Origin: Halorubrum lacusprofundi ATCC 49239
Lineage (GTDB): Archaea; Halobacteriota; Halobacteria; Halobacteriales; Haloferacaceae
DNA: 64,000 bases
Reading direction: 5' to 3'
Assembly (NCBI RefSeq): GCF_000022205.1
Contig: NC_012028.1
Location: 434,001 to 498,000, forward strand
Below are positions 8,268-60,627 of the stretch, in pieces. Both the position numbers and the translations under genes were made by a program. Numbering within the stretch: position 1 is the first letter of the stretch; each line of letters starts with the position of its first letter. The notes below the pieces were generated by a model. That model was not told where the DNA came from, ran no database searches, and saw only the letters and a list, made by a program, of their open reading frames with translations.

Positions 8268-8290
8268 AAGTTGGTAGACTGAACCGATAC

Positions 8291-8300: not shown

Positions 8301-8310
8301 TCGTCTATTG

Positions 8311-32964: not shown

Positions 32965-33105
32965 ATGACATTGGAGAAACAAATAATAAATGGCAATTAT
33001 CTTCGTACTGTGAGTGGCTTCGGACGACAGCTTTCCCGTCGACTGAGTTCCCGCCACAGGGAGGTCGGTCGAAAGAGGCGGTGGAAACAGGCGGTGGCCC
33101 GCTGA
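32965..33105 (+). CDS. possible 46-aa leader ORF coupled to the RND transporter
   Basis: ATG 32965 encodes MTLEKQIINGNYLRTVSGFG followed by an Arg-rich tail and stops in the TGATG that overlaps the transporter ATG. The start is about 25-30 nt after a TATA box, as for a leaderless message. The basic composition is atypical for haloarchaea, so it may be only an untranslated leader. Confidence 0.25.
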   Translation: MTLEKQIINGNYLRTVSGFGRQLSRRLSSRHREVGRKRRWKQAVAR

Positions 33106-35729: not shown

Positions 35730-35820
35730 GTCATCCAAAACGTCAATCCGTCGCCGTCGACCGGGACAGCCAGCCGAAAACAACCCCTGTGTCGTGCGAC
35801 TGTACTGGAGGTGTCCGTGT

Positions 35821-39007: not shown

Positions 39008-42000
39008 CTAGTATATTCGAGAGAGCAATTCTGCATCGATGTTCGCATCCGAGTGATGTGTTTGGTTCCCACTTGATGTCTGGCTCACAGCACCTCTATC
39101 TTCGAGCAGTTCGATTGCACCCTGAACCCGCTCTTCGATGCGTTTTCCACGGCGCTGGTAGCCAATAAGTCGACTCGTCTCTAGGACCAGATCATCTCTG
39201 GTCATTGTGCCGCCTTCTTTGAGCAGTATCGCCACAGCTTTCGCGATCTCTTCGGTCGGGATCTCACCAATGGTCCTAGTGGCTGATTCAGTATTTACTC
39301 TCACCCTAAACTCAAGGTCGTGACGGTTTGGCCACAGGAACCCGTCTCGCTCGTAGATCTTGTTTTGGCGTTTGAGTTCACTGACGCCACTCTTGAAGAT
39401 CCGTTGGATTTTCTTTCCGGCCCTCGATTGCGACCAAACATCAAGAAAGGTCTGCATGGCAGTTTTGTATTCAATCGGTCCGTTCTGTGTCACCGTATCC
39501 TCGATAGCATTCAGATTCGCGTTATTCTGTCCCCGTAGGTCCACCGAATATCGGTCGCTCCATTCCAGACTAGGTTCGACGTACTCTGCCAACCCCTCGT
39601 GATCAAACTTCGATTTGCTTGCGACAGCTTCTGGCTCGTGTTTGGGGACGTCTTCTGTCGTCGACTCCGATTTCCCGGCAACCAAGCTATCTATTTTCTC
39701 GGTGATTTGCTTGATCTGCTGTTCTCTGTTCGATGTCCAGTCTGGCGACCAAATTCGGTGGATCGTCCACCCCAGATCCTCCAGTACCATCTGTCGTGTC
39801 CGATCTCTATCTCTCGCCGTCTTCGAGGAGTGGTAGGCTGCCCCGTCGCACTCAATCCCGAGGACGAATTTGCCTGGCTGCTCTGGATGTTTGATCGCCA
39901 AGTCGATACTGTAGCTCGAACTCTGGACCTGTGAGACAACATCATGTCCTTCCGCTTCGAGTGCCTCATACACCGCCTCCTCAAACTGCGAATCGAAATC
40001 GAGTGTGGTCGTAACCTGATCGTTGCGTTGGAGTGCCTGCGTTCCTTTTTGGGCGTATTCGAGGTAGTTTTTGAAGTCCTGTGCGCCTGTACTGTTCGAT
40101 CCCGAGAGGTCGATATCACCCGGCTGCATCGAACACACGACCGTGATCTTCTCTTTGGCCCGAGTCACAGCAACGTTGAGACGTCGCTCACCACCACTTT
40201 TATTGAGTGGACCGAAGTTCGTCGATATCGTTCCATCTTCGGCAGGACCGTAGCCCACACTGAAGATCATCCGATCACGTTCGTCACCCTGCACCATCTC
40301 GAGATTCTTGATGAAGAACTCATCTAAGACGTCGTCTTGGCTCACGAAGGCATCCAAGACAGCGTTTTCTTCGCGTCGCTCTATAAGTGCATCTCGGATC
40401 GCTTGTTCCTGTGCACTACTGAAGGCGATGACACCGAGGCTCTTGTCGCTGTTATTCTCTGCGTGGTCTTCGATCAAATCAATCACTCGCTGTGCCTCGA
40501 TTTCGTTCTGTCTCGACCCACCGCGGTCGTACACACCGTCCTTAACATACTCGAAGTAGACACCGGTCTCCACGTCTGGGTCGTTTTCCGGGAACGTCCG
40601 GAGACTGTTGTTGTAGTAGTGGTGATTCGAGAATTGGATGAGTTCCTCAGTGCGGCTCCGGTAGTGCCAGCGAAGATTCTTTTCCGGTAGTACAGCCGCC
40701 GTTTCTTCGAGTATACTATCGAGGTCTTCTCGGACATCTCCAGTCGTTTCGACATCAGACTGGAAGAACGAGGTCGGTGGGAGTTGTTTTGTATCGCCTG
40801 CGATGATCGCCTGGTCTGCACGGATGAGGCTACTAATAGCATCTTGTGGAACGATCTGGGATGCCTCGTCGAACACCACGGCGTCGAACTCTATCGAATC
40901 CGATTTGAGATATTGGGCGACCGACAGCGGACTCATCATAAAGCACGGAGTCAACTGGGTTATGAGCGACCCCGCTTCGTCGAACAACTCACGGAGTGGT
41001 TTATGTCGACGCTGCTTTTCAGCTTCTCGGCGGAGGAGGACTTGTTCCGAGCTGGCTGCGTGTTGCAGATTCAACGTCGGCCGTTGGTTAGTGATTAAGT
41101 GTTGGACCTCGATCTTCGCGAGTTCTTGCTGTTCTTGATCTAAGCTGCGGAAGTCCTCTAGGTACCGTTCCATCTCGTCTGCGTTGAACGACCCGAGATC
41201 CGTGTGCTCGTAGACGCTGTTGAGCCATTTCGTATAGAACCGTTTTTCGAACGCTGAAACGAGGTGCTCACTACTGTAGTCGCCTCGGAGGAACTGGTCG
41301 ACATACTCCTCACAGATTGTCTCACGAACGGTATCCAACTGCGAGGCAAACTGAACACGCTGTTGGAGCTTCGAAACATCTTCTCGAAGCTCTCCAAGCA
41401 GTCCCGATAATTCAGACAGGAGGGCCTGATTGAGTGCTGTGCCATTCACAGTCATCTCTTCGACTGCCATGGCACCCTCGAAGAACTCAGCAGCCTCATC
41501 GTACTGGCTCAGTGCGTCGGTTGTCTGTTCTAGCAATGGGTCTACATTAGGGAGACTGTTATCGAGAAGTGCCTCAATCACCGGCTGTGTATCTACAGTA
41601 TCAAACGTATCGAGTGTTGCCACCCAGCTTTGTGCTTCAACGAGTCCCTCCCAATCAGTATCCCCACCCTCATACAGCGGACCAAGGCGCTGGATAATTC
41701 CTTGATACTCCTCTCTCCGGTCTTCGATTCGCTGTACTTCGGCCAGCTTTCGTGTATCTTCGAGCAACTGTTCATGATCGGGGCTGTAGCCGTCTTGGGT
41801 GTGGTTCGTTAGCTTTCGTTTGAGCGACCGGTACCCCGATTTGAGTATCTTCAGGAATCCGTAGCCTGCAAGTTCGTCGTTGAGCTCTGACCCATTCGCA
41901 GAGAAGAAGCTACGATGATAGTTCTCCGAGAGGTCTCCCATGAGTTCATCACGCTCCCCTTCGAGTTCTGCAAGTTCTTCAAACCGGCCTCCCTCTAGGG

Positions 42001-45000
42001 CAAAGGAGCCATCGAAGAACGCCTCTTGCCACGCAATATCTGGGCGATCAGAGAGGAGGCTTACCAATTGAGTGACTTCCCGGAACTCTGTAAGTGACTG
42101 TGGTTGCAGTCCGAGCTCTGCATCAAGGGTATCACTAACAGTTTGGAGGGTGTCGATTGCAGCCAACTGCTTGTTCAACGATTGGCGCATGGAATCACCA
42201 GTGTCCACACCCCACTGCCGGAGGGTCGTATGCCGCCACGGACTCGTCTCGTAGGCGTCGATCTGGGTATCGAACCGAGCGAGGGTTTCTAACTCGTCGA
42301 CCGCTGTATCGAGCGTCTCCTGTTTCACGCCCAACGGCTGTGTAATTCCAACATCAATTCGTGGTGACTTCGCGTGCTCACTTACAATTCCAAACGCTTG
42401 GTAAGCAGTCAGATTCCATCCATCCGGCGAGTAGAACAACTGTTGGCCGTATTGGTTGATCGTATCCCGTCGGTTTCGGAGCTTCTGAAGCTGTTTGGAT
42501 CGACCTTTGGCTGGCTTGATTTGTGAGGCCTTGAGTTCCTGTTCGAGACTCCCGAGGACCTCCACATTGGTGGCTTTCTCCCCGTGGACTTCGAGACAGA
42601 ACCGGGCGAGACCGACATTGTCGAGTCGATTTTTGACAACATCGAGTGCGGCTTGCTTTTCGCTGACGAATAAGACGCGCTCACCAGCAGCCAACTTCTC
42701 TGCAATGATATTCGAAATTGTCTGGCTCTTTCCGGTTCCCGGTGGGCCTTGTAGGACGAAGCTTTTGCCTCGTTTCGCAGCCTCGATGGCTTCCTGTTGA
42801 CTCGAATCTGCATCCAATACTTGGTATGTATCGATCGGGTCGACAACATCGTCCAGTTCTGTCGCTGTCGGCGTCGTAATGTCACCTTCCGCCTCCCGGA
42901 TAGGCTTCATATCACCGTTCAGCGCTTGAATGATTGGATCAGACTTAATTTGGGATCGATTGCGTTCGAGATCTGAGTATAGACTAAACTTCGTGAAGTC
43001 GAAGATCCCCAGCACGATGTCCTGTTGGATCGTCCATCGGTCGAATCCACGGAGGCTCTCGTAAACAGATGCGAAGGCAGCGTCTATCTCGTCGAGTGAC
43101 AGTGCGTCGTCAGCTGGGAGACTAATACCACGTTCGGCTGCGAGCTTTTTGCGTAAGGCGGGATTTATGCGGAGTCCATCGACTTTCGGTTTGATGACGT
43201 AATCGTGTCGTTCCCCGTCTGGGTTTGTCTTCTCTACAAGTTCGACGGCAGCAAGGAACAACGGTGATCGGTTTGCCTCATCACTATAGTCGACGCTATA
43301 CCATCGAAGCATCCCCAACGACAGATACAGTGACGCGACACCCCGCTCACGGAGATACTGTTTGTTATTGAGTCTAATATTGTGGAGTGAGTTGTCGGAT
43401 TCATCCGGCGTCCGGCTGGATAACAACTCTTTTGGCTCTATCTCAGGCCCTTCGTCTTGGTTCTGAGTCGAATCCTCGTCCGTTTCGTCCTTGTCCGGTT
43501 GTTTCCGAATATAGAGATCTTCGCCGTTTGCGAGTTGACTGGCGATCGCTATTGGGTCGGTCTCCTCGAATGGGAGAGATTTCGTCTTTGTAGGCTTGAA
43601 CGAGATGAGCTTGTTCCGACGAGTCAGATCAAGGAGTTGGGACTTCCATTCATCGATCTTCTTATCCAGTGGGCTCCCTGTCGAAGGCGAGTCTCCAACA
43701 CGTTGGTCTGAGTCTTGCTCGTCGTATTCGGTGATTAAGTCGACGTTCCGGTCCCAAAATATCGGTTGATCTGATTCAGGATCGGATGTAGAACCCCTGT
43801 CCGGTTCATCTGGTTCCTCGCCACCGTCGTCTCTAGCCGTCTCCGCACCTCCAGTACTCTCCTCAGAGTTCTGCGGTTCGTCTTCTTCATTTGACCCCGC
43901 TTCATCTGGTCCGTCAGTAGCAGGTGCTGGTTCTGCAGGGAACTCTTCGAGTAGCCTCACGGCGGCCACAAGTTCCTCTTCAGAATCCACGACGATTGGA
44001 AGCGCCATCTCGGTCTGTGGGGCGATTGGAAGATAGACCTCTTCTCCCGACTCAGTGATATGCTCTCGGATGAACACTTCGAAGTCGTCGACATCGCCGA
44101 GGCGTTCAGCTGGTACGCACTGGTAGTCGGTAACTTGATTTCCGTCACCGTAGGCCCGACGGTATTCTTCCATCTTGTGGGTGTTTCGAGAGCCCTGCTG
44201 TTGACCGTAGCTTGGAGCCTCATCCGTGAGTCCACTCCCGAAGACGACGTTTTGGACTTCGGTATACCATCTGTTCATCGGGTCATCATCGTCGACACGA
44301 TAGGAGGTTTGGTCGGACTCGATGAGCTCCTCGAGCAACGAGGCAAAGGTACGGAATAGGTCGTAGTACTCCGCGAGCGCATTCGCCTGCACACCATCTT
44401 CGACGACAATTCCGGTCGTTTCGTCTACTTGATCGACACCTGCTGCTTTTCGAGCCTCGAAAATCGAGTCGAAGTGTTTGTAGATAGTCGGTGAACTGAA
44501 GGGGCCGTGCTCGTTGATGTCAGTCGAAGTGGGAACTTTCCCAAGGTCAGCGGCAATCTCTTGGAGTACGTGAAGGACTTCCTCACGTGTGTAGCTCTGC
44601 TTGGATGTTCCACGCGGAGTGAGACCTGCTTTTCGAACCGCCTGTGTCCATGTATCGAAAGTATTCTCGTATTGATCAAGTGTATACGACCCTCTGTTCG
44701 TCATCTCGGCTCTCGTCGGCACTTGACCCAGTTCTTTGTTCAGCCGTCGAATTTCGTCGAGAAGGTCGTCCGAGGAGGGTTCTTGGGTCGACTTCTTTAT
44801 CGTTTCGATTAGAGTTTCGGCTTTATCGCTTGCCCAAACGAGGCCCTCTCCATCACGGAAATAGTATGCATTGAGTTCCGACCGCAGATATTCCTCGACC
44901 TCACGTTCGGACGAAAACGTCCACTGAACCTGAAGCGCAGAGAGATCTGTTGGCTGCTGATTTAGAAGATCCTCAATGCGTTTTTGTTTCGTTGCCGGGA

Positions 45001-47287
45001 TTTCTCCGTGTGAGTTCGGCACCGGCGCTCCGTCATTCACAGTTTGTGATTGGTCCGGCAGCTTATTAGTGGAACTATCTGGACTAGAAGAGTCCTCATA
45101 TGCCTCTAGTTTGTCTGTACTTTGTTGCCACGCGTATTCTTCCCACTCTCCGAGGATCGACTCTGCATTCCCATCGGTAGACTGGACTGCATCGAGCAAT
45201 GCTTCTAAGTCGTCTTGTTTGATGGTCTCTTGATCCCAATCGTACTCACCATCAGCATCAAGTGTGTCAATAAAGTGTGTCCCTTCTGCGAGTAGATTCT
45301 CTAAAACACCACCGTCTACCGACGTCGACATCGCAAATCCGGGGAGTGTTTCGAACCGTCGGCCAAGCGAGCAGAAGCCCGCTGCTTGCTCTAGGAGTTG
45401 CTTTCCATCCTCACGGTGAGCAGCTGCCGAATCGGTCGGTGCGATACCAACCACGTTGTAGAACATTGCATGTTTCGGAGTATCTGCAGGGTTCCGTAGC
45501 ACACGGCCAATACGTTGGACGAGTGCCTGATTGACACCGCCAGTAGCCATGTTGATCGCCACCGACGCGTGTTGCATATCGACACCTTCTCCCAGCAAAT
45601 CACCAGTTCCAAGAAGAATCCCAGAACTTTCGGGCTCGTCGAATTCATCGATGGTCTCACGCAGCTCTGTACGGCTTTGTGATCCAGAGACGAGATAGAT
45701 CGATGCTGGATTGGCAACAACATCGTTAAGTCGAGACTCTAGTTCTTCGACTTGCGCATTGCTATCTGCGAGGACGACCACCTTCTCTGTCGTGTGATGT
45801 TGAACGACGAGGTTGATGACAGCATCCAAGACTGGCGAAAGATTCCATTTCTTGGTCCGTCGTGAGAACAATCGCGTAACTAGTTCTCGGAACTCCTCGT
45901 CTTGCTGCTTCAGTTGGTTGCCTTCCTTGGTGTGGGAAAACCGCCGTAGGTCATCGTACGTTCTGAGTCGACGATCGGTTTTGAGTGTGAGTTCTCCTTG
46001 CGTGAGGCGGGTTTGGAAGTCACGAAATGCCTGGTCTGCCCGGGTTGCGACTTTCTGTAGATCGTCCCCAACGACATCGTATGGCGCATAGTGTACTTCC
46101 CAGTCGAAGGATGGAATGACACCGTCTGTTCTCGCCTCGGAGATCGTATATCGCTTGATTTCTGGCCCAATACTGTTCGAGAGTCGTTCTTTGATGCGTT
46201 GACTATCGCTTCCAGCATCGTCGACAGAGCCGGACATCGCCAGTACATCCCCGTCGAACTCGTCGAGGAGCGATCCCCATTCAGTGCCAGTAGCGTAATG
46301 ATGAGCCTCGTCAAGTAAGACTAGATCGTATGCTATCTGGTGGTCGTTCACCAGCGATTGCGGAGTCCGGAAATGAATCGTCCCCCATTGGAGTGTGATG
46401 TCGTCACTGCCCTTCGTTCGCTCCTGTGGGATATTCAAGTGTTTTTCGAATGCACGACGCCACTGTTCGAGGATGAGGTCGCTGTGGGCGACGATAAGAA
46501 TGTCATCGCTTCCATTTGACTCTGATTCAGATACCAAACCACCGATTGCTTGATCGGCCGGATGTAACTCCCCATACTGGAGCGCGATAGCACCAAGACC
46601 GAGAACGGTCTTGCCTGTGGCTGTTGCCATATCGACGTAGCCACGTCGGTCCTTTTTCCACCACTTTTGGAGTGCATCACGCTGGTGGTCCCACAGTGGG
46701 GTCATCATCTGTGGTTCGTCTAACAGCGACAGGAGTCCTCGTGAGGCACGGTCCTCAAATTTAGTCAACAACAGATCAACATTCGAGGCTATAGTCTCAT
46801 TGCCGAATAGCTGCGTTGTTATATCAGATACTGTGGTACCGGAGAGATTGAACGAGACGCTCAGATCGTCACCAACATGTCGGGTAAGGAGTTTTTCAAT
46901 GAGTGCCTCAGTTGCCTTTTCTACATCGTCGATACCAAAATCAGTCGTCGTGATTTCGTGACTTAATTCGTTGAGTTGGAACGCAAGCAAACCCAGCTTC
47001 TCGTCGTCGACTTGTTCTTCCAGGACTTTGGGCAGGTCGGCATACCGACCAGCCGTTTTCTTCAATCCTCGCCGATAATAGGTTCCTAATTCCCGTCCGA
47101 AGTCATCTTTAGAAAGAGTAAGGTCACTAATTTGAATCCCTGAAGAGATATCTTTAGCCGTGTCATCAATATAGGTCGACCACTCCGTTTTAGGGCGTTT
47201 GAGAAGGAACGCATCGTGGTATTCTTCTCCTATCGATTGTATCCCACGTGCCCGATCGTCGACAAGATCGTCAATATTTCGTCCCAT
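39008..47287 (-). CDS. giant fusion: SF2 helicase, HNH-type repeats, DUF4011/SF1 helicase, Vsr-like nuclease
   Basis: About 2759 aa from ATG 47287 (MGRNIDDLVDDRARGIQSIG); a GTG start 27 nt upstream is possible. Domains in order: SF2 helicase with YVDMATATGKTVLGLGAIAL (about 220) and YDLVLLDEAHHYATGTEWGS (about 325), helicase C with QALVQRIGRVLRNPA near 610; repeats DEIRRLNKELGQVPTRAEMT and QEIAADLGKVPTSTDINEHG (about 840-960) resembling homing-endonuclease-associated repeats; an acidic linker; a DUF4011-like start (WKSQLLDLTRRNKLISFKPT); SF1 Walker A FVLQGPPGTGKSQTISNIIA (about 1512), motif II AVVFDEASQIVPQDAISSLI (about 2140), then RLNVAVTRAKEKITVVCSM; a Vsr/MTES-type nuclease with GIECDGAAYHSSKTARDRDR (about 2480); and a winged-helix-like end. 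Two complete helicases and a nuclease in one chain suggest phage DNA targeting. It lies downstream of the second AddB-AddA pair on the same strand. Confidence 0.85.
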   Translation of the reverse strand: MGRNIDDLVDDRARGIQSIGEEYHDAFLLKRPKTEWSTYIDDTAKDISSGIQISDLTLSKDDFGRELGTYYRRGLKKTAGRYADLPKVLEEQVDDEKLGLLAFQLNELSHEITTTDFGIDDVEKATEALIEKLLTRHVGDDLSVSFNLSGTTVSDITTQLFGNETIASNVDLLLTKFEDRASRGLLSLLDEPQMMTPLWDHQRDALQKWWKKDRRGYVDMATATGKTVLGLGAIALQYGELHPADQAIGGLVSESESNGSDDILIVAHSDLILEQWRRAFEKHLNIPQERTKGSDDITLQWGTIHFRTPQSLVNDHQIAYDLVLLDEAHHYATGTEWGSLLDEFDGDVLAMSGSVDDAGSDSQRIKERLSNSIGPEIKRYTISEARTDGVIPSFDWEVHYAPYDVVGDDLQKVATRADQAFRDFQTRLTQGELTLKTDRRLRTYDDLRRFSHTKEGNQLKQQDEEFRELVTRLFSRRTKKWNLSPVLDAVINLVVQHHTTEKVVVLADSNAQVEELESRLNDVVANPASIYLVSGSQSRTELRETIDEFDEPESSGILLGTGDLLGEGVDMQHASVAINMATGGVNQALVQRIGRVLRNPADTPKHAMFYNVVGIAPTDSAAAHREDGKQLLEQAAGFCSLGRRFETLPGFAMSTSVDGGVLENLLAEGTHFIDTLDADGEYDWDQETIKQDDLEALLDAVQSTDGNAESILGEWEEYAWQQSTDKLEAYEDSSSPDSSTNKLPDQSQTVNDGAPVPNSHGEIPATKQKRIEDLLNQQPTDLSALQVQWTFSSEREVEEYLRSELNAYYFRDGEGLVWASDKAETLIETIKKSTQEPSSDDLLDEIRRLNKELGQVPTRAEMTNRGSYTLDQYENTFDTWTQAVRKAGLTPRGTSKQSYTREEVLHVLQEIAADLGKVPTSTDINEHGPFSSPTIYKHFDSIFEARKAAGVDQVDETTGIVVEDGVQANALAEYYDLFRTFASLLEELIESDQTSYRVDDDDPMNRWYTEVQNVVFGSGLTDEAPSYGQQQGSRNTHKMEEYRRAYGDGNQVTDYQCVPAERLGDVDDFEVFIREHITESGEEVYLPIAPQTEMALPIVVDSEEELVAAVRLLEEFPAEPAPATDGPDEAGSNEEDEPQNSEESTGGAETARDDGGEEPDEPDRGSTSDPESDQPIFWDRNVDLITEYDEQDSDQRVGDSPSTGSPLDKKIDEWKSQLLDLTRRNKLISFKPTKTKSLPFEETDPIAIASQLANGEDLYIRKQPDKDETDEDSTQNQDEGPEIEPKELLSSRTPDESDNSLHNIRLNNKQYLRERGVASLYLSLGMLRWYSVDYSDEANRSPLFLAAVELVEKTNPDGERHDYVIKPKVDGLRINPALRKKLAAERGISLPADDALSLDEIDAAFASVYESLRGFDRWTIQQDIVLGIFDFTKFSLYSDLERNRSQIKSDPIIQALNGDMKPIREAEGDITTPTATELDDVVDPIDTYQVLDADSSQQEAIEAAKRGKSFVLQGPPGTGKSQTISNIIAEKLAAGERVLFVSEKQAALDVVKNRLDNVGLARFCLEVHGEKATNVEVLGSLEQELKASQIKPAKGRSKQLQKLRNRRDTINQYGQQLFYSPDGWNLTAYQAFGIVSEHAKSPRIDVGITQPLGVKQETLDTAVDELETLARFDTQIDAYETSPWRHTTLRQWGVDTGDSMRQSLNKQLAAIDTLQTVSDTLDAELGLQPQSLTEFREVTQLVSLLSDRPDIAWQEAFFDGSFALEGGRFEELAELEGERDELMGDLSENYHRSFFSANGSELNDELAGYGFLKILKSGYRSLKRKLTNHTQDGYSPDHEQLLEDTRKLAEVQRIEDRREEYQGIIQRLGPLYEGGDTDWEGLVEAQSWVATLDTFDTVDTQPVIEALLDNSLPNVDPLLEQTTDALSQYDEAAEFFEGAMAVEEMTVNGTALNQALLSELSGLLGELREDVSKLQQRVQFASQLDTVRETICEEYVDQFLRGDYSSEHLVSAFEKRFYTKWLNSVYEHTDLGSFNADEMERYLEDFRSLDQEQQELAKIEVQHLITNQRPTLNLQHAASSEQVLLRREAEKQRRHKPLRELFDEAGSLITQLTPCFMMSPLSVAQYLKSDSIEFDAVVFDEASQIVPQDAISSLIRADQAIIAGDTKQLPPTSFFQSDVETTGDVREDLDSILEETAAVLPEKNLRWHYRSRTEELIQFSNHHYYNNSLRTFPENDPDVETGVYFEYVKDGVYDRGGSRQNEIEAQRVIDLIEDHAENNSDKSLGVIAFSSAQEQAIRDALIERREENAVLDAFVSQDDVLDEFFIKNLEMVQGDERDRMIFSVGYGPAEDGTISTNFGPLNKSGGERRLNVAVTRAKEKITVVCSMQPGDIDLSGSNSTGAQDFKNYLEYAQKGTQALQRNDQVTTTLDFDSQFEEAVYEALEAEGHDVVSQVQSSSYSIDLAIKHPEQPGKFVLGIECDGAAYHSSKTARDRDRTRQMVLEDLGWTIHRIWSPDWTSNREQQIKQITEKIDSLVAGKSESTTEDVPKHEPEAVASKSKFDHEGLAEYVEPSLEWSDRYSVDLRGQNNANLNAIEDTVTQNGPIEYKTAMQTFLDVWSQSRAGKKIQRIFKSGVSELKRQNKIYERDGFLWPNRHDLEFRVRVNTESATRTIGEIPTEEIAKAVAILLKEGGTMTRDDLVLETSRLIGYQRRGKRIEERVQGAIELLEDRGAVSQTSSGNQTHHSDANIDAELLSRIY

Positions 47288-47542
47288 TATATATACGAGC
47301 AGAGTAGCTACCACTTGCTAAGTATTGGCGTGGTATGTAGGTTCCGTTGACAGGGGCAAGCGTTGTTAATTCATTATTTTGTTACATTCGTTGATTTTGT
47401 ACTATCGATCTTGTCTAAAATCTTATCTATGAACTCGTGGCCACGACACCGTCCAGATTAGGGGATCTCTAAGGATTAGGAAATGGAGTACTTGACTTGT
47501 GATTAGTTATCCAAAATTCAGGTAATTTATCCTAACACGATA

Positions 47543-47914
47543 TTATCTATATTGCCGAACCAGATCCTGGATTTCTCCCTTATCGAGCGGCTCAATCTTT
47601 ACACGCTTGCCGTCAAAAGTGTAAAAGATCTCAGCTGTCACGGTTCGGTCTGGATACAGTTCAGACACAATGTGATAGTAGACACTCAATTGCTTACGAT
47701 ATTCGGATTCTGCGTGTTGATCTAAGTCAGTCTTGTGGTCGACAATTTCGATGCGGTCAGGAGTGATATGGAGGAGATCGATGATCCCAGAGATCGTCAC
47801 ACGCTCGCCGTCGACATCGACTGGAAGGAACGCCTGTTCCTCGGCTATGGTCTGTCCCTCCATCGAGTCTAACAGTACCTTGACGTTGGCTTCATCCTCG
47901 CTGTCGGGCTCTAT
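47543..47914 (-). pseudogene. C-terminal part of the second AddA-like gene, separated by an IS200/IS605 element
   Basis: The frame is open from 47914 (ATA-GAG-CCC) to TGA/TAA at 47543, 123 residues: IEPDSEDEANVKVLLDSMEG, then the PD-(D/E)XK nuclease core ERVTISGIIDLLHITPDRIE and IVDHKTDLDQHAESEYRKQL. It aligns with the C-terminus of the intact paralog at 8652-11498. Joining codon 49767-49765 to 47914-47912 gives an uninterrupted chain of 946 aa, against 948 in the paralog. A stand-alone product from the internal ATG at 47863 is possible. Confidence 0.85.
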
Positions 47915-47933
47915 CTTTTTTCAAGGCGAGAAT

Positions 47934-47951
47934 CCCGCCGTTTACGGCGGG
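47934..47951 (+). repeat. left subterminal hairpin of the IS200/IS605 element
   Basis: Perfect 7-bp stem with loop TTTA, about 20 nt from the left end. TnpA of this family recognises such hairpins in single-stranded DNA. Confidence 0.7.
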
Positions 47952-48056
47952 CGTGAAGCCGACAACTCCCTCACGTTCCACCGTCGGTTGCAGTCTGAAT
48001 ACCCCACGACGGCAAACCTTTATTAGAATTGGGTGTGTAGAAATCAGTACGACCAA

Positions 48057-48449
48057 ATGAAGTACAACCTCGAAACTGGGTCGCACACGGTCTACGCGCT
48101 CCAATATCACTTCGTGACCGTCACGAAGTACCGCGCAGACCTACTCACCGACGAAATCGCAGAACGGGTCGGTGAGATTGCCAGCGACATCTCCGAGGAC
48201 TTCGGCGTAAACATCCAGAACGTCAACGGCGGAAGCGACCACGTTCACATCCTCTTCACGGCGAAGCCAACGACCGACCTCACCAAGTTCATCAACTCAC
48301 TCAAGGGCGTCACATCTCGCAAAATCCGTGACGAGAACCCCGAGGTTCGGCAGGCGCTCGACAAAGCGTTCTGGCAACCGGGATACTTCCTCACCACCAC
48401 TGGCCAAGTGAGCATCGACGTGCTGATGGAGTACGTGGAGGAGCAGTAG
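48057..48449 (+). CDS. tnpA: TnpA, Y1 transposase of IS200/IS605 family
   Basis: I start at ATG 48057 (MKYNLETGSHTVYALQYHFV), giving 130 aa, the family size. The HUH motif is in GGSDHVHILFTAKPTTDLTK (HVH), and the catalytic tyrosine lies in KAFWQPGYFLTTTGQVSIDV or the following EYVEEQ. It catalyses single-strand excision and insertion. TnpB begins 1 nt after its stop. Confidence 0.92.
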   Translation: MKYNLETGSHTVYALQYHFVTVTKYRADLLTDEIAERVGEIASDISEDFGVNIQNVNGGSDHVHILFTAKPTTDLTKFINSLKGVTSRKIRDENPEVRQALDKAFWQPGYFLTTTGQVSIDVLMEYVEEQ

Positions 48450-48450
48450 C

Positions 48451-49710
48451 GTGTCCACGACCGTCACGAAGACGTTGCAGGCGACGTTCGCACCCCCCAC
48501 CGCGCACAAGCAGTCGAAACTCAACGACCTGCTCGAAACCTACCGTGACGGTCTGCAAGAAGCGTTCGACGCCGGGGCGAGTACCATGTCCTCGGTGAGC
48601 GACATCGTGACGCCCTACGACTTGCCGTATCAGGCCAAAGCCGCGCTCTGCAACTACGTCCCGAAACTCCGCAAGACGTACAACGCGCAGGATTTGGACG
48701 ACGAACACCCGATACGACTCACGAACCAAGCCGCGAAGTTCGACCACTCGGAAGAACGCGACTACGAGTTTACGTGGTGGGTTCCTCGTCCCGGTCGGGG
48801 AACGAATTTCTGGATGCCGCTCCGCATCAATCCCGAACAGGAAGACCTCTGGCACGACCTCGTATCCGAGGACGCGAAAGCGGGCGAGATACGGCTTCAA
48901 CAGCATCGGAAGAATTGGGTACTACACGTCACCGTCGAGTACCCGGTTGAAGAACCAGCGGCGGACGGTGACGCCACGCACATCGGCTTAGACATCGGAG
49001 AAACCGCCCTCATCACGGGCTGTGCCCTCAAGGACGGTTCTCCGACTGACCCGTTCGTGTGTAGCGGAAGCAGAGCGAAGCATCTCCGAAAAGAGATGCA
49101 CACGACCCTGAAACGACTGCAAGAGCGTGACGCTTCGGAGTGGCGTACCGACGAACGGTTCGACCACTACCAGAACGCCCTCACCGACATCGTGGAGAAA
49201 GCGTCTCGGGAAGCCGTCGAGTACGCCAAGCAGTTTGAAAATCCGGTGTTGGTGATGGAGGACTTGACGTACATCCGTGAGCGTCTCGACTACGGGAAGT
49301 ACATGAACCGTCGGCTTCACTCGTGGGCGTTCGCCCGACTCCAAGGGCGCATCGAGGACAAGGCGACGGAAGCAGGTATTCCGGTCGAGTACGTGAATCC
49401 GGCGTACACCTCGCAGACGTGCCACTCGTGCCACCGCATCGGTCGGCGGGACTCGCAGGCCGAGTTCCGGTGTCCGAACGATGACTGCCACGTTTCGACG
49501 TTTCAGGCCGACATCAACGCTTCCGCGAATATCGCACGACGGGTTGACCCGTGGGGAGAGAGCGTCCCGCTTGACAAGGCCGGACGCGATGACTCGCCTC
49601 GGGATGGGAGCGGTTGTGACACCGCCACGACTCACCGTGAGAAGAGCGTACCAGCGCAGATGACGCTCACGGCCTACGAAGAGTCGAAACCCTCTACCAG
49701 CGACGACTGA
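48451..49710 (+). CDS. tnpB: TnpB, RNA-guided nuclease of IS200/IS605 family
   Basis: 419 aa starting with GTG 48451 (MSTTVTKTLQATFAPPTAHK). The RuvC-like residues are in ATHIGLDIGETALITGCALK (Asp), NPVLVMEDLTYIRERLDYGK (Glu) and CHVSTFQADINASANIARRV (Asp). A zinc ribbon lies between (TCHSCHRIGRRDSQAEFRCP, then NDDC). TnpB proteins cut DNA guided by an RNA from the element's right end and favour retention of the IS. All key residues are present, so it may be active. Confidence 0.93.
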   Translation: MSTTVTKTLQATFAPPTAHKQSKLNDLLETYRDGLQEAFDAGASTMSSVSDIVTPYDLPYQAKAALCNYVPKLRKTYNAQDLDDEHPIRLTNQAAKFDHSEERDYEFTWWVPRPGRGTNFWMPLRINPEQEDLWHDLVSEDAKAGEIRLQQHRKNWVLHVTVEYPVEEPAADGDATHIGLDIGETALITGCALKDGSPTDPFVCSGSRAKHLRKEMHTTLKRLQERDASEWRTDERFDHYQNALTDIVEKASREAVEYAKQFENPVLVMEDLTYIRERLDYGKYMNRRLHSWAFARLQGRIEDKATEAGIPVEYVNPAYTSQTCHSCHRIGRRDSQAEFRCPNDDCHVSTFQADINASANIARRVDPWGESVPLDKAGRDDSPRDGSGCDTATTHREKSVPAQMTLTAYEESKPSTSDD

Positions 49711-49734
49711 CTGGTATTCCCCCTGCGTGGGAAG

Positions 49735-49754
49735 CCTCGCCGTTTACGGCGAGG
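49735..49754 (+). repeat. right subterminal hairpin of the IS200/IS605 element
   Basis: Perfect 8-bp stem with loop TTTA, ending 10 bp before the right boundary. The same region likely forms part of the TnpB guide RNA scaffold. Confidence 0.7.
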
Positions 49755-49764
49755 AGGATGTCAC

Positions 49765-52233
49765 ATCCTCGCCGAGTACGTATGCCTCAGCGAAGTCGTG
49801 GACCTGTGAGCCAAACTCCATCCCGCGGCCACCAGTACCGTCGTCAAAGACAGCATCGTCAATGAACGTGTGTGGTGAGAACCGTGGAGACCCCTCACTC
49901 GCCGAGATTTCTACCTCGAAGGGAGACTCATCTACGGGCTCGGGCGTGAACGATGAAAGGTCGGGGTTGACAGCCTCGACGTCGACAGGAAGCTCCTCGA
50001 GAAACGTATTGGGATTCTCACCAGCGGTAAACACAACATGGTTCTCAGCGCGTGTGATGGCGACATAAAGCAATCTTCGTTCCTCATCATACTCGCGTGG
50101 GAGACATCGTCGGAGGACGTCTAGCTTCCAATTATCGTAGACGTACGGAACTCCATGAGCCACTTCCGAGTACAGTTTACGTCGACGGAGGCCGATGGGA
50201 TCGTCGTAGGAGATATCAGTCCCACTTCCTCCTGAGGAAGGGAACTTATTGGTATTCATATTCGCGAGGATCACGATGGGATATTCGAGACCCTTCGTCG
50301 CGTGGATGGTCTGGACGGTCACTGAGTTGGTGCCAGCGCCAGCTTGGACCTCGTGTGTGCTGCCGGACTCGATTGCATCCTCAATGAACCGGATCAGATC
50401 GCCCCGGGTGAGCGTCGTAGCCTCGTACACTGACTGGACAGTATGGAGCACAACATCGGCCGTCGGACCCTCACAACCATATCGCTCAAATACGCGACGG
50501 GCAACGCCACCGAACGTCTCCAGTTTACGTAGCTCCTCCCGGAACCCGATCATCATCTCCGGATACGCCTCGTTTTTTAGGACTGCCTTTGACTCGTCGA
50601 TTGTATAGCCTGCTTCCTCCAGGACGAGTGCCCAGCCGCGGTCGGCGTCCCGTTCAAGGATCCGGAACCATGCTAAGAGGAGCTTGGCAGCGTCAGTGCG
50701 GAACACCTCGATACCACCCTCGTACGCCATCGGAAGGCCACATTCCTCAGCCACATCCAACAGATCACGCCCGAAATCTCGAGTCCGCGTTACCACAGCT
50801 ATATCACTGTACGTAGGTGCACGAAGTTCGCCATCTTTCTCAACCGCATAGGACTCGTTCCCAGTGATCTCATCGATTTTCGTGAGAATTGCTTCGTGTT
50901 CTTTGTCGCTGCGTATCGCCTCGATGATGCTGTTGTCGTAGTCAGCATCTGCAGTGAGCGACGTGATTTTCTCTCGAACGGCGTCGACATCGACTGATTC
51001 AGAGCTTGTCGCTGGTGTCGTGAGCGCATGCTCGGTGAAGTCCAACACCGACTGCGTCGAGCGGTAGTTGGTATCCAATTCAAGTTTCGTGACCGGTGTT
51101 GTGGGATACTGGATCCGGTCGTAGTCGTTGTTCAACTCCGTAGTGAACCGCTCAAGTCGCGTCTCGAACTCCCGGATGTTGTCGACATCAGCATATTGGA
51201 AACTGTAGATACTCTGTTTCCAGTCGCCGACCACACAGATATTGTTCGTCCCCGCCAGCAGTAGCGTCAGCTTGAACTGGATCTCACTGGAGTCCTGAAA
51301 CTCGTCGACCATCACATATTCGTAGCCCAGCTCCTCCCGGAGTTCGTGGTCTTCGCACAATAGAACAAACGCGAACAGCTGGAGGAAGCTGAAGTTCAGA
51401 TAATTGCGCCGGAGCGCAAACGAGAGGTAGGCGTGATACATGTCGTGAATGAACGTCTTGAGTTCCTCTCGGTCTTCCTCAAACACGCGACGGGCAACCG
51501 TGTCTGGTACCTGCTTACCGCCGTCACGAATTTCCCACCGTTCGGGAGCCTCCGGGAGGTAAGCCTTGTTCTCACCGTACTTATTGAGCTTCGCACGAAG
51601 GCGTGATTGTTTGCTCCCACCGTTCCGTGGTTCGTTAATCTCCTCAAACAGGTCCTCGAACGCCTCGAAATCGCCGTCAAGATGCGACTCGCCGTCGCGA
51701 TACCAGCCCTTGGCCGTGGGGAACACGCCCTTCGCGGCAAGTTCCTTGATCAAATCAAGCAGTTCTGTGGTATCTGAGATGGCGGTGAAAAACGAGTTAT
51801 ACTCCGGATTAGTGTCCATAAACTGCCCGATGAACTCGTCGAACAGTGCCTCCTCAACTAGCTCATCCTCAAGGATCTGAGTTGACCCTGTAATCCGGTC
51901 ATCGATACCGAGGTACGTCGGGACGGCATGGCCGTGTTCCTCCAGCAGATCGTTTGCCAGCGAGTGGAACGTCTGGATGGGTGCGTCTGTCAACTCCCGC
52001 ATGCCATACTCACTTTGGCTCACGATCCGCTCCTTCATTTCGGCAGCCGCGTTGTTTGTGAACGTCACTAAGAGAATATCCGCAGGGTCAACATCACTCT
52101 GCTCGACAATCGTCGCGTACCGACGAGTGACGGTGAATGTCTTTCCGGTTCCGGCGCCAGCGTCGACGAGATGTAGTCCGTCTGTACTCTCAATGAGTCG
52201 ACCTTGTTTCTCATTGGGATCGAAGTCGCTCAT
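49765..52233 (-). pseudogene. N-terminal part of the second AddA-like helicase, cut by the IS200/IS605 element
   Basis: From ATG 52233 (MSDFDPNEKQGRLIESTDGL) 823 codons of host gene remain. All SF1 helicase motifs are present: VDAGAGTGKTFTVTRRYATI, ILLVTFTNNAAAEMKERIVS, EYVMVDEFQDSSEIQFKLTL near 305-320, VVGDWKQSIYSFQYADVDNI, VTVQTIHATKGLEYPIVILA and RRLLYVAITRAENHVVFTAG. The local frame ends a few residues into the element. The nuclease domain is in the separate 3' part, so any product would be a helicase without nuclease. Its start overlaps the AddB-like stop. Confidence 0.88.
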
Positions 52234-54818
52234 CGCTCACCCTCCAACAACAGGTCGCGGTTGTCGACGTACCTGTAGTTCGGCTCGCCAGCGAGGCCCT
52301 CCACAGGGAAGCGCTCGTCGCCAGCCAGTCGACGGTCGAGTTCGGTAAGACGGTCCTGGATGAATGTCTCGAATGCATCGAGATCGCTCTCGAAATAGTT
52401 ACGCTCCCAGACACGGGTCATCTCCCGCATAGCCTGTTTGCTCCCCGTAGTCACGTACTTGTACTCACCAATAATGTCTTCCAACTGGTCAATCATCTGC
52501 TGGCCAAACGCCGATTCGATGAGTTCGTTGCTATCGGTTGTCTTCGGTGGCTTTTCCACCTCAAAGAGGTCATCGTACGCCTCATAATCTATTTTTGAAA
52601 GTATCTTTTGACATTTGTTCGCTCCATCCTCCAATAGATACTCAAAAAATTCTTCTCTGTTTACATACTCTTCTGGTGACGTGGGATAGTACGTCACAGT
52701 TGTCAGCGTATCCTCGATATCGACTTCACCCACAATAGCATCGTCTACTGTCTCAAGGAAGTGGAAGAATGTGAACTTCAGCCGCTCGTCCGGGAACTTT
52801 GAGCGCCAGTAGGTCAGGTATAACAGTGCCTGAAAGTTCGGCTCATCTGTCGGATCGTCGACCGAAGAGTGTTTCACCACATCACGTGCGCTTTTCTTCG
52901 AACCACTCTTGAAATCGGTCAGCTGGATTCGCGACTGAACCAAGTCGATCACACCGTTTATCCCGAGATCTTCGGCGTCGAACCGACGTTCAGTGACGGG
53001 CGAATCGACCGTTCGGTCGAAGTAATCAGCGATGATATTAGTGCCTCGTCCCGTTGAGGGTGTAAGAAAACTATCGTCAGTTGGCGGGTTTGCACCAAGA
53101 TGAAAGATGATCGTTTTGAGACCGATTCGGTACTCCGTCCGGCGAGTTTCCTCGTCTACCGAGCGCATGAGTGGCCGCGCCTCTTCAAGCATGAACTCAA
53201 CGGTTTCCTCGATCACAGTACTGTCGACAAACTCTGGATGGTTGACGTAGAATTCTGCGAAGTCGTGGAACAAATTACCCTCTGTGAAGTAATCTTTGTC
53301 CGGACTCTCAACCAACCGACTGAAATAGTAATCACGAGGTGAGTTGACATAAGTACTCAAGCTCGACTGGCTGATCGTCTCAACGGACTCTGTTGACACA
53401 CTCGCAGACGTCTTCTCGAAGGCGGTTGGTGTTTCGAGATCGCTCCGTTGTGAGTGGGTCGTCGAGGGGAGGTCACTAAATCGATCGTACTCTTGTTCGA
53501 GTAGCTCCTCAAAGTAGAGACATGGAGTCACTGGGGACCCACCCGTGGAGTTTTGGACAAGATAGTGCTGCTTGCTGCCACTCTGGAGGAGGAGCTGAAA
53601 TCCCTGAATATTGCGCGTATACTGTGCTTGCTGATCGACCCATGGTCGCCGTGGTGGCGAGTGAGTCCAGTCCTCATCAAGGCCGAGGAAGAAGACGACA
53701 TCTCGTCCGACAAACGCCGCCGACTTTGCGTCTGCAAGGAGTACACCCTCGTTCTCACGATTAACCGGTACCTCGTACGATTGAAGGTAGAAAGATAGCT
53801 GGTCGACTCCGTGTTCAGTGACGGGTTCGTTTGCGATGCTGAGTGTGTCGAGTTCGTCACGGAATGTCTCAAGTTCGCAATTCGCTCGTTTCTTGAAGGC
53901 AGTTAGCGCCTCACCGAACGTGTATGTCTCAGCCTTACGACAGAAGTCAGTCAACCAGACAAGTTCGGGGGCCTCTGTCTGATACAACCGTTTTTCCTCG
54001 TGTGCAATGTCGAGGTCGATATTGAGCGTCGCAAGCAACGGACGTATCTCCTCAATGAGAGTCTCAGTCCCACGAAATGCCGTCCGAAGTAGCTGCAGAA
54101 ACGCTCGGTGCTCCGCGAGGTCACTGAATCCTGGGCCTCCAAAGAACGGAATGCCAGCGGCTTCTAGCGCCGACTCAACAAGCGGTGAGTACTCGCTATT
54201 CTGATCCAATACAATGGCAACGTTCTCTGCATTCTTCACTGAGACCGAGTTTATGACGGCGTCGACGATAGCCGTGGTTGAGTCTAAAATACGGAACTCC
54301 GGCAGCTCGAAGGGATCGTCCGTGAACAGGTCGACCGTGTCGTACTCATCGGGGAGAAATGAGCGCTCCAACTGTGTGAGCATGTCAAAGCCGACGATGA
54401 CTACGTCCTGATTTGGGTCGATGTTACCGATAGTGAGTTCCATCGATGCTGTGTCAATGTCAGCAATGCGCTTGACAGCACGCTCGGTTGCGTCGTCGAC
54501 ATACGCATCGTATTCAAGGATGGCGTTATGGGAGCCTTGGTGTTCCCAACACTGAAGAATATTTCCGATGGCGTAGGCAATCTGCTTCCACGAAATATCA
54601 TCATGCTCAATTATATCAAGAAACGCGAGTCGATCTTCAGATTTCTCACGGCGGCCGGCAGCGAGCCGGCGCGGTGGGATTGCGAATGGGCCAAGATGCG
54701 GTTGGTCTAGCTGACGATTGAGTGCACTTGCCAGTGGCCCGTCGGGTGTAATAATGAGGTCATAGCTTTCGACCTCATTGTACAGCCTTTCGGGAGTTTT
54801 GGCTTTGGGGAAAGACAC
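52230..54818 (-). CDS. AddB-like protein with PD-(D/E)XK nuclease, second copy
   Basis: 862 aa from GTG 54818 (MSFPKAKTPERLYNEVESYD), the same length as the copy at 11495-14083 and similar throughout (PLASALNRQLDQPHLGPFAI; QYTRNIQGFQLLLQ; YVNSPRDYYFSRLVESPDKD). The nuclease core is in EDLGINGVIDLVQSRIQLTD followed by FKSGSKKSA. It lacks Walker A. It overlaps the AddA-like gene by 4 nt. Its own frame is intact although its partner is broken. Divergent from the Argonaute gene, with 249 bp between. Confidence 0.78.
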   Translation of the reverse strand: MSFPKAKTPERLYNEVESYDLIITPDGPLASALNRQLDQPHLGPFAIPPRRLAAGRREKSEDRLAFLDIIEHDDISWKQIAYAIGNILQCWEHQGSHNAILEYDAYVDDATERAVKRIADIDTASMELTIGNIDPNQDVVIVGFDMLTQLERSFLPDEYDTVDLFTDDPFELPEFRILDSTTAIVDAVINSVSVKNAENVAIVLDQNSEYSPLVESALEAAGIPFFGGPGFSDLAEHRAFLQLLRTAFRGTETLIEEIRPLLATLNIDLDIAHEEKRLYQTEAPELVWLTDFCRKAETYTFGEALTAFKKRANCELETFRDELDTLSIANEPVTEHGVDQLSFYLQSYEVPVNRENEGVLLADAKSAAFVGRDVVFFLGLDEDWTHSPPRRPWVDQQAQYTRNIQGFQLLLQSGSKQHYLVQNSTGGSPVTPCLYFEELLEQEYDRFSDLPSTTHSQRSDLETPTAFEKTSASVSTESVETISQSSLSTYVNSPRDYYFSRLVESPDKDYFTEGNLFHDFAEFYVNHPEFVDSTVIEETVEFMLEEARPLMRSVDEETRRTEYRIGLKTIIFHLGANPPTDDSFLTPSTGRGTNIIADYFDRTVDSPVTERRFDAEDLGINGVIDLVQSRIQLTDFKSGSKKSARDVVKHSSVDDPTDEPNFQALLYLTYWRSKFPDERLKFTFFHFLETVDDAIVGEVDIEDTLTTVTYYPTSPEEYVNREEFFEYLLEDGANKCQKILSKIDYEAYDDLFEVEKPPKTTDSNELIESAFGQQMIDQLEDIIGEYKYVTTGSKQAMREMTRVWERNYFESDLDAFETFIQDRLTELDRRLAGDERFPVEGLAGEPNYRYVDNRDLLLEGER

Positions 54819-55067: not shown

Positions 55068-57263
55068 ATGAGTATCTTCGCAAATTCTTTCGAAATCGAG
55101 GTCCCGACACTACCTGCGGAAATATATAAAATTGATCCTCAACCTTCTGAGAGTGATCCTTGGCGGGCGCTTGATTCATATGAGGAGTCCATAGAGCGGA
55201 CTTGCCGAGGAAGTGCCCACAGAATCAAAAACAGTGGTGACTGGGCGATTTTATCGATAGCAGCCACAGATAGCCAAGATGAACTTCAAGGGCCGGATGG
55301 AACAAGGCTTGTTCGCACCAGCGAGACAACTGTAGGGGGCGAGAACGGAAGATATCAATCCGCAGTAAAGCAAGCACTGCGGAATTCGTTGGAATGGTTC
55401 GTGACGAACCATCTGGACTTCTGGGAGCGTGGGAACAGCCAAGCGTTCTATGAGTGGGACCCATCGAACACCGTCGGTATGTACGATGCATACCATGGGT
55501 ACAAAGCAACAATTGATTACAACGACGGCTATTACCTCACTGTCGATTCGACTGTTAAATTCATTTCCAGTAAATCTATCAACGAATATCTCTCGGAATT
55601 GGGGAGAGACGTCGTCAAGACGCGATTTTTTGACCGTTATTGCACCCTGATGTCAGACTCACGCCCTTCTGTGGAACTCGTCTCTCTGGCTGAAGACCTG
55701 ACTGTCTCCGATAAAACGATGAACTTTGGCGGGAAGGAAATGTCGGTTATTGATTACATAAAATCAGATGACAAGTACTCACAGGAAGCCTTTGATGCCA
55801 TAGACCCTGATGAGCCATTGGCAAGAGTTCGGTTCCCTTGGAGTGATGATCCCGTTGACACCGCCCCATCGTTGCTCCATCCACTTCCCAATGGAATAGA
55901 ACCGAAGATGACAGGATATGCGGCACGATCAGCAGACGAACGATGGCGCGATACTGAACGATTCGCTAAGCGAATTGATTACGTTCAGGTGTTCGATGAG
56001 CAATGCAATGTCTCAGACGAACCTCGGCGAGGGGGATCCGTCCACGATTATCCATCGCTCAAGTTTGGAGGAACAGAAGTACTGAATCTCGGCCAACAGA
56101 ACCCACTTAATACGGATCAGACAGTTAATAGACAAAACTGGCGATATCTTGTCCGGGATTTCTTGGAAGAATATGGACCTGCAGTTCGACAAAGAGGTGC
56201 TGCACAAATCGATGTTGTTCATCCTGACGGGCGGAGCGATATGGCTGCAGAACTATTTGCAAATTTGTCGAAATACCTTGAGAATTTCGTCGGGATCACA
56301 GTTCGCGATCAACCAGGAATTGTTTCTCACTCTGACTATCAGAAACTCCGAGAGTGGAGAGAACGTCACGCCGAAGACTCAGATGGAATCCTCGTCCTTC
56401 AGGAGGATGGCTCTGACCGTTATCTCGATATCGTCGCTGAACTTGAAGGGAACCCGACACAGGGAATCACTGTTGGCACCTACGAGTCTTCACTTCGGTC
56501 CTCTGGATTCGATGACTCAATGTATAACATCGCATGCGGACTTGCGACGAAGATGGGTGTTCGCCCCTTCCTGCTCGACCAACCACTGAACGCAGACTTA
56601 TTTTTGGGAATGAGTGTTACTGGGGACGAGGTGAATAACGCTACAGCAGTTCTAGTGTCCGGTGAAGACGGTGATCTTATCGGTCAGACACAGACTAATT
56701 TGGCGACAGGATCGAGCACAGTTACTGGAAAAGACGTTGCTGCTCGAATCGTCCGGCAACAGATTTCCGCTGCAATTGACCGGAATCAGCTCGGTTACGT
56801 GGGATCACTCACCATTCATCGTAACGGTCAGTTCGGAGATGGAGAGTTGGAAGGGATACGAGAGGGCATCGCGGAACTACAGTCCAGTGGTGATCTCAAC
56901 GAGGAACTCACATGGCAAGCAATAGAGATATCAGACGGTTCATCCCATCGCCTCTACACTGACGATTCTGGATCTATGGTACAGACTGGATCAGTTATGC
57001 CACTCGATGACAAGAGCGTAACTGTTGTAACGTTCGGTTCTCCGCATATTCATCAGGCTACCCCTGATCCGTTGTACTGTACAATTGCGGATGGAGAAGG
57101 AGAAACAGATATCAATTTAATTGGGACAGATATCCTGTCTCTCTCGTTTCTTAATTGGGGATCGCCGATGATGAAAATGAAGCAACCCTTGACGACTTAC
57201 CTCCCAGCAGAGATGCATGACATTTTATCAACTGGAACACAGCTTAATCACCCTCCGTTCTGA
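55068..57263 (+). CDS. prokaryotic Argonaute with a PIWI domain lacking the catalytic tetrad
   Basis: This 731-aa protein has a MID-like segment (YESSLRSSGFDDSMYNIACG, then LATKMGVRPF near residues 475-500) leading into PIWI: LNADLFLGMSVTGDEVNNAT (about 508), GSLTIHRNGQFGDGELEGIR (about 580) and ILSLSFLNWGSPMMKMKQPL (about 690) near the C-terminus. In active Argonautes the first strand has Asp (G-x-D-x) and the HRDG strand has Asp; here they read GMSV and HRNG, so cleavage activity is probably lost. Size and loss of residues fit the long-B pAgo group, which acts through associated effectors. It is more AT-rich than the neighbouring helicase genes. Its end overlaps the convergent peptidase gene by 20 nt. 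Confidence 0.85.
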   Translation: MSIFANSFEIEVPTLPAEIYKIDPQPSESDPWRALDSYEESIERTCRGSAHRIKNSGDWAILSIAATDSQDELQGPDGTRLVRTSETTVGGENGRYQSAVKQALRNSLEWFVTNHLDFWERGNSQAFYEWDPSNTVGMYDAYHGYKATIDYNDGYYLTVDSTVKFISSKSINEYLSELGRDVVKTRFFDRYCTLMSDSRPSVELVSLAEDLTVSDKTMNFGGKEMSVIDYIKSDDKYSQEAFDAIDPDEPLARVRFPWSDDPVDTAPSLLHPLPNGIEPKMTGYAARSADERWRDTERFAKRIDYVQVFDEQCNVSDEPRRGGSVHDYPSLKFGGTEVLNLGQQNPLNTDQTVNRQNWRYLVRDFLEEYGPAVRQRGAAQIDVVHPDGRSDMAAELFANLSKYLENFVGITVRDQPGIVSHSDYQKLREWRERHAEDSDGILVLQEDGSDRYLDIVAELEGNPTQGITVGTYESSLRSSGFDDSMYNIACGLATKMGVRPFLLDQPLNADLFLGMSVTGDEVNNATAVLVSGEDGDLIGQTQTNLATGSSTVTGKDVAARIVRQQISAAIDRNQLGYVGSLTIHRNGQFGDGELEGIREGIAELQSSGDLNEELTWQAIEISDGSSHRLYTDDSGSMVQTGSVMPLDDKSVTVVTFGSPHIHQATPDPLYCTIADGEGETDINLIGTDILSLSFLNWGSPMMKMKQPLTTYLPAEMHDILSTGTQLNHPPF

Positions 57264-58335: not shown

Positions 58336-58768
58336 GCTTACTCCTTAGTCGCTCTGCCTCAGATTTAGATACTTTTCCGGCGAGTTCTTCGATGTCAGTG
58401 AGAGTTGTCTCCGCGCGTTGAATACCCTGTACTGCATCAAGATTCTCTTCAGCCTGCTCCAGTGATTCAATATCTTCCTCTAACCTTGTCACAGCTTCGT
58501 TCGAAACCTGTCGCCAGTTGTCGCAGAGTTGCTGTGATAATGCGTATGTGTAATCGTCTACTTCTTCCGGCGATGTCAGCCCTCGACGTAGCTTCGAAAG
58601 GAGTTTCTTACCCTCACTCAGTTGAGACCGGAGCGTGTCGTCTTGGTAGGACATTTCGAGTCCGTCGTCACGGTTTCTAAGCACGCCAATGGCTAAGAGC
58701 GCGGCGTCAGCCTGCTCATTGAAGCGGCGGTTTTCTTCGTGCCGCCGCCTCGTTCGCCAGATGCTCAT
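58325..58768 (-). CDS. coiled-coil protein upstream of the metallopeptidase
   Basis: 147 aa from ATG 58768, MSIWRTRRRHEENRRFNEQA. Nearly all helical and charged, with LSEGKKLLSKLRRGLTSPEE and VTRLEEDIESLEQAEENLDA. No enzyme motif or membrane segment. The 11-nt overlap with the peptidase gene suggests linked production, for example as partner, sensor or substrate. No family recognised. Confidence 0.55.
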   Translation of the reverse strand: MSIWRTRRRHEENRRFNEQADAALLAIGVLRNRDDGLEMSYQDDTLRSQLSEGKKLLSKLRRGLTSPEEVDDYTYALSQQLCDNWRQVSNEAVTRLEEDIESLEQAEENLDAVQGIQRAETTLTDIEELAGKVSKSEAERLRSKLVG

Positions 58769-60625: not shown

Positions 60626-60627
60626 CA

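Follow-up and report, generated by a model that had tools for sequence, protein, structure and literature searches.

A giant double-helicase defence candidate and its AddB-AddA neighbours in a haloarchaeal defence island

Within the window, by which we mean the whole stretch of 64,000 nucleotides of Halorubrum lacusprofundi DNA analysed here, three large genes follow one another on one strand: an AddB-like gene, an AddA-like gene split by an insertion sequence (IS), and a gene encoding a single chain with two helicases and a nuclease. A sequence-only reading of the locus had placed and described the three genes correctly and had proposed that they form one undescribed three-gene defence system. 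The locus thus raises the question of whether AddAB and the giant gene work together. The reading that we favour, and hold to be probable, is that two separate units share one defence island, one being a one-gene giant defence candidate and the other an AddAB cassette, most plausibly serving a trio of genes around a prokaryotic argonaute (pAgo) on its far side.

The giant gene and its relatives

The giant gene and the features recognised in and before it are as follows (residue numbers refer to the protein).

39008..47287 (-): giant gene, single chain of 2759 aa; SF2 helicase, HNH repeats, DUF4011, SF1 helicase and Vsr-like nuclease
47334..47353 (-): conserved element TCA.CG.AA..TACAT, shared by 8 aligned loci including the window and lying ~50-65 bp before the giant gene
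45485..46696 (-): SF2 helicase core, PbeA/XPB-like (Pfam ResIII, residues 207-354, and Helicase_C, residues 496-608)
44414..44989 (-): DUF5797 (residues 776-847) and two HNH_repeat units (Pfam; second repeat by eye)
43142..43639 (-): DUF4011 (Pfam, residues 1226-1391)
40127..42808 (-): SF1 helicase, Upf1/Smubp2-like (Pfam AAA_11/AAA_12, residues 1503-2396)
39692..39985 (-): MTES_1575 Vsr-like REase domain (Pfam, residues 2444-2541)
39404..39508 (-): possible DUF3320 (wHTH) segment near the C-terminus (sub-threshold match)

Counted from the first GTG (39008-47314, minus strand), the frame runs uninterrupted for 2768 codons; the ATG at 47287 (MGRN...) is the start common to all homologues and yields the 2759-residue single chain of the earlier reading. 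Pfam agreed with that reading also as to content, finding the SF2 helicase, the two small repeats, the DUF4011-type SF1 helicase and the Vsr-like nuclease in one chain, and the nearest solved structures were XPB for the SF2 half and Smubp2/Upf1 for the SF1 half. The repeats are of the HNH-associated, or homing-endonuclease-associated, type; since they alone were detected and Pfam found no HNH catalytic domain in the giant protein, an HNH nuclease identity was dropped. A PbeA-style N-terminal phospholipase-D nuclease was dropped as well, residues 1-200 having no Pfam match. The N-terminus looks helical in a low-confidence model of residues 10-745 (pLDDT 41, too poor to use).

A search of other haloarchaea recovered the full architecture in 11 further proteins, namely those of eight named haloarchaea (L001-L008, L001 being cut near the C-terminus) and G081, G256 and G405. 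The presence of the same architecture in independent genomes rules out an assembly fusion of two genes, one of the outcomes that the sequence-only reading had named as fatal to its proposal. In every fused homologue compared, the SF2 motifs TATGKT, DEAH and QRIGR were invariant and the SF1 motifs GPPGTGKS, DEAS and GD(T/R)KQLPP were kept; the Vsr motif (I/V)ECDG..Y......ARDRDR was kept too, the diverged copies G256 and G405 varying at a few positions inside it. Several homologues extend beyond the C-terminus of the window protein by up to 495 residues; by eye, zinc-finger-like and PH-like segments can be made out in the tails, with partial backing from Pfam (DUF7501 and sub-threshold zinc-finger matches).

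When a tree was built from the DUF4011 half, every fused protein fell into a single set with 100/100 support. Two rows with the unfused label also belong to this set: L001, a fused protein that was not labelled as such owing to its truncation, and L009, a fragment from Haloquadratum. For the SF2 half, a quick tree returned the fused set as one clade (97) in which L001 was the only other row. The fused proteins form what is essentially a single clade that reaches across haloarchaeal families, and the near-identical copies found in different families (L005 and L008; L007 and G081) argue for horizontal transfer. The C-piece of the giant occurs in 16 of 394 Halobacteriales genomes and the SF2 module, mostly unfused, in 43; a scan of IMG/VR revealed no relatives of the giant protein. 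The giant gene is real, conserved and mobile, and its catalytic motifs are intact.

The conserved element upstream is probably the giant gene's own promoter. Genes lying further upstream differ everywhere, and the element travels with the giant gene; its single match in the window is a check of uniqueness and not independent proof, the search pattern having been derived from the same 8-locus alignment.

AddAB and the giant gene

The window holds two AddB-AddA pairs, the first of which lies next to the giant gene.

52230..54818 (-): AddB, 862 aa, with a C-terminal PD-(D/E)XK nuclease (PDDEXK_1, residues 481-745)
49744..52233 (-): AddA, frame of 829 codons shortened by the IS, UvrD helicase part (Pfam UvrD)
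48033..49710 (+): IS200/IS605-type element in AddA (Y1_Tnp 48033-48449, TnpB-type 48451-49710; the span is that of the genes, not of mapped element ends)
47552..47914 (-): AddA C-terminal part past the IS, PD-(D/E)XK remnant
11495-14083 (-): second AddB
8652-11498 (-): second AddA, nuclease domain intact

The pair beside the giant gene is of the AddAB/RecBCD kind in having overlapping genes, a UvrD helicase with PD-(D/E)XK in AddA and a PD-(D/E)XK nuclease in AddB; it differs from that kind in that haloarchaeal AddAB, of a short and a long type, is scattered among defence modules, and in that its AddA is IS-split. This AddA carries its helicase and C-terminal nuclease as a split gene, the two being intact together in the second copy. 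The insertion falls inside the nuclease domain, the helicase part still being open, and because the element splits this domain the pair is probably inactive in this strain. The second pair (8652-14083), absent from the sequence-only reading, adjoins the BREX genes brxA, brxC1, brxB and brxC2 at 3-8387.

Were the first pair and the giant gene to form one system, as that reading had it, the giant protein would recognise and cut DNA and AddAB would degrade the ends. Shared strand and adjacency in the window speak for such a system, but the fused loci do not. AddA/AddB-like genes flank the fused giant gene in one of 11 loci, the window itself being the one, and none was recognised in the flanks of the ten others, several of which offered one usable flank; L001 offered none. 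Among 80 AddAB-centred loci, the giant gene was seen in the window only. Furthermore, AddA is separated from the giant gene by a gap of ~230 bp holding the giant's own conserved upstream element, whereas AddB and AddA, on the same strand, overlap by 4 bp. The co-occurrence that the sequence-only reading had asked to be counted has thus gone against it, the giant gene being usually alone, as its authoring model had said would refute the claim.

The wider distribution of AddAB points the same way in numbers, the window-type AddB being present in 149 of the 394 genomes (and a longer AddB type in 78) against 16 for the C-piece of the giant. No neighbour is dominant among the 80 AddAB-centred loci. 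Relatives of the giant provide the remaining support for a joint system. AddAB lies near three of ten DUF4011-Vsr genes devoid of the SF2 module (L036, L038 and L046) and near three of 17 unfused SF2 modules (L102, L108 and L110, as SF2-AddB-AddA runs), which makes an occasional cooperation plausible. The individual arrangements comprise AddB, AddA and a DUF4011 gene in what looks like one operon in H. jeotgali, an AddB-AddA pair divergent from the DUF4011 gene at L046, and an SF2 module, a DUF4011 gene and AddAB all within 20 kb in Halomontanus. With these on one side and the fused loci on the other, we regard a three-gene system as unlikely.

Known systems and the likely role of the giant protein

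Residues 1215-2747 of the giant match positions 5-1541 of the 1550 in the PADLOC profile PDC-S37 (1423 bits). The likeness takes in DUF4011, the SF1 helicase and the Vsr-like nuclease over nearly the whole profile; the difference lies in ~1200 extra N-terminal residues of the giant, which hold the PbeA-type SF2 helicase, DUF5797 and the HNH repeats. As PDC-S37 members have a typical length of ~1550 and no further catalytic module, the giant is a variant and not a typical member, while the lack of any constant neighbour at the fused loci agrees with the single-gene unit of that family. PDC families are unvalidated defence candidates (PMC12988326), and a literature search for PDC-S37 returned no match. 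The Hhe profile of PADLOC also matches (552 bits; reported best stretch 1323-1789, i.e. 467 of 1911 profile positions), HheA belonging to SF1_Upf1 (PMC10925250); both have an SF1 Upf1-type helicase and then a similar nuclease region, and the SF2/HNH N-module of the giant is absent from the profile match. MTES_1575-type proteins, which combine HEPN, transglutaminase, SF-I helicase, Vsr REase and two wHTH domains (PMC3710099), share with the giant the order of SF1 helicase, Vsr REase and C-terminal wHTH/DUF3320; HEPN was not found in the giant, which has an SF2 helicase and HNH repeats instead.

The SF2 part, with its ResIII and Helicase_C domains, is of the type of PbeA (partial profile match, E 5.5e-20), a component of the archaeal phosphorothioate-linked PbeABCD / CxC ABC-ATPase system (PMC6459918, PMC10853773). 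Unlike in PbeA, a phospholipase-D nuclease is without match in the giant, and no pbeB, pbeC, pbeD or dnd genes were recognised around the giant gene of the window. Elsewhere, at L095-L099, the SF2 module has unfused relatives in the vicinity of PbeA-/PbeC-like genes and, at most of these loci, of large HNH-repeat proteins (PADLOC was checked on L096). The C-half of the giant is of a known kind (PDC-S37/Hhe, MTES_1575-type), and what is new is its fusion to a PbeA-like N-module. No description of the full architecture was found in the literature, in agreement with the earlier reading, which knew of no described system with this set.

Several fused copies have known defence genes beside them, namely ZacC and an HKD/SNF2-DrmD-like protein at L005, an HmaC-like ATPase at L003 and a pAgo at L056, and these neighbours make a defence role likely. 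An alternative is that the giant protein is an enzyme of DNA repair or genome maintenance, in keeping with its helicase and nuclease make-up, with XPB and Smubp2/Upf1 as its nearest solved structures, and with a DUF4011 gene that is core in P. aeruginosa, where it flanks a defence hotspot (PMC10250203). The patchy occurrence of the C-piece and the near-identical copies in different families argue against a housekeeping enzyme of this sort, as do the adjoining defence genes and the standing of the C-half family as a predicted defence candidate, and we find this alternative improbable.

The giant gene is likely antiviral. Under the two-unit reading, it would be a one-gene, DNA-targeting defence candidate in which a PDC-S37/Hhe-type protein stands behind a PbeA-type SF2 helicase and HNH-associated repeats. 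The SF2 module and the repeats would engage invading DNA or translocate on it, the SF1 motor would then open it, and the Vsr-like domain would nick or cut it; the variable C-terminal extensions may tune recognition. We infer the antiviral function, the cleavage of DNA and this order of action. If the protein is indeed antiviral, it would unite two unlike DNA motors with a nuclease in one archaeal chain, and sensing, unwinding and cutting should be separable by point mutations in a single archaeal gene.

The pAgo trio and its link to AddAB

On the other side of AddB lie three further genes.

55068..57263 (+): pAgo (PADLOC PprPIWI, 426 bits, full length; Ago structures match), divergent from AddB
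57244..58335 (-): pAgo partner with an invariant HExxH, putative zinc metallopeptidase
58325..58768 (-): small protein, present alongside the HExxH gene and pAgo at every locus examined

In most pAgo homologues, GMSV/GLSV and HRNG appear to replace the Asp positions of the DEDX slicer tetrad, as judged by motif position. The HExxH proteins are 24-33% identical to that of the window, and each of the 13 sequences aligned keeps H169, E170, H173, E216 and D220, a pattern that is putatively that of a zinc metallopeptidase. The Pfam matches to Peptidase_M78 and SprT are both sub-threshold, a PDB profile search with the family yielded nothing relevant, and the predicted structure (pLDDT 42) is too poor to use.

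The trio of pAgo, HExxH protein and small protein, or traces of it, was present at each of the 16 pAgo loci examined, some genes being broken. AddAB, of the short or the long type, lies within 6 kb of the trio in ten of these 16 loci, including the window (55068-58768); the 16 are not independent, as two sit on one Halorussus plasmid and two on one Halosimplex plasmid. Two loci first met through AddB searches (L137 and L140) were recovered by the pAgo search too. Compared with the fused loci, the association of AddAB with the trio gave a Fisher p of 0.008, which became 0.012 when each genome contributed a single locus. It also lies well above a random-position estimate, which ignores the clustering of genes in defence islands and is thus inflated and indicative only. 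AddAB fits the neighbouring pAgo trio better than it fits the giant gene.

Under the two-unit reading, then, AddB-AddA would be a haloarchaeal cassette for processing DNA ends, found attached to one defence module or another, that here most plausibly serves the divergent pAgo trio, for which we infer that it degrades DNA ends or supplies guides, with the caveat that genes cluster in defence islands anyway. A review states that pAgo guides usually derive from RecBCD or AddAB fragments (PMC12948488), which suggests a possible role for AddAB with this trio. Literature on argonaute and AddAB, judged largely by title or abstract, contained no haloarchaeal pAgo-AddAB locus; PprPIWI gave no match, and the set of pAgo, HExxH protein and small protein was not found described. 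The set resembles inactive long-B pAgo systems (PMC10620215) in pairing a slicer-degenerate pAgo with a dedicated partner, and the pPIWI-RE module, rarely fused to a zincin domain, offers one precedent of a PIWI-zincin link (PMC3702460); it differs from both in that the HExxH protein is a separate one, a small protein is added and AddAB is often nearby. A conserved pairing of pAgo with an HExxH protein would mean that the effector may be a protease and not a nuclease, and the view that AddAB is portable and processes ends for archaeal defence systems is a testable assignment.

That the three large genes are mere co-residents of a dense island, with AddAB linked functionally neither to the giant gene nor to pAgo, would suit a window in which BREX, a type IIG enzyme and another AddAB pair are present as well, and the lack of a dominant AddAB neighbour, but it is doubtful in view of the recurrence of two AddAB types by the pAgo trio and by BREX, and of a linkage to pAgo that exceeds the random-position estimate even if island clustering inflates the figure.

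More tentatively, a mix-and-match logic may run through haloarchaeal immunity. A PbeA-type SF2 module with HNH repeats would be teamed with one nuclease partner or another, whether in a single chain with DUF4011-SF1-Vsr, in a row of genes with AddB-AddA, or next to HNH-repeat and PbeA/PbeC-like proteins, and AddAB would be a shared end processor recruited by BREX (long AddAB pairs flank BREX at L119, L120, L141 and L143), by DUF4011-Vsr proteins and, most consistently, by the undescribed system of inactive pAgo, HExxH protein and small protein.

Some further genes were noted in passing. At L120, L125 and L151, the long AddA adjoins a pAgo-like gene (747 aa) that belongs to a different family (PADLOC was checked on L120). 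Downstream of the pAgo trio of the window, at 59168-63195, lie an RNase_H_2/HHH protein and then a DEAD-box helicase with an MrfA-type Zn-binding domain. The type IIG-like gene is a large restriction-methyltransferase gene at 27000-30896 (PADLOC REase_MTase_IIG), and an MMPL-family gene and, after it, a squalene-hopene-cyclase-like gene occupy a higher-GC stretch of the island at 33081-37803.
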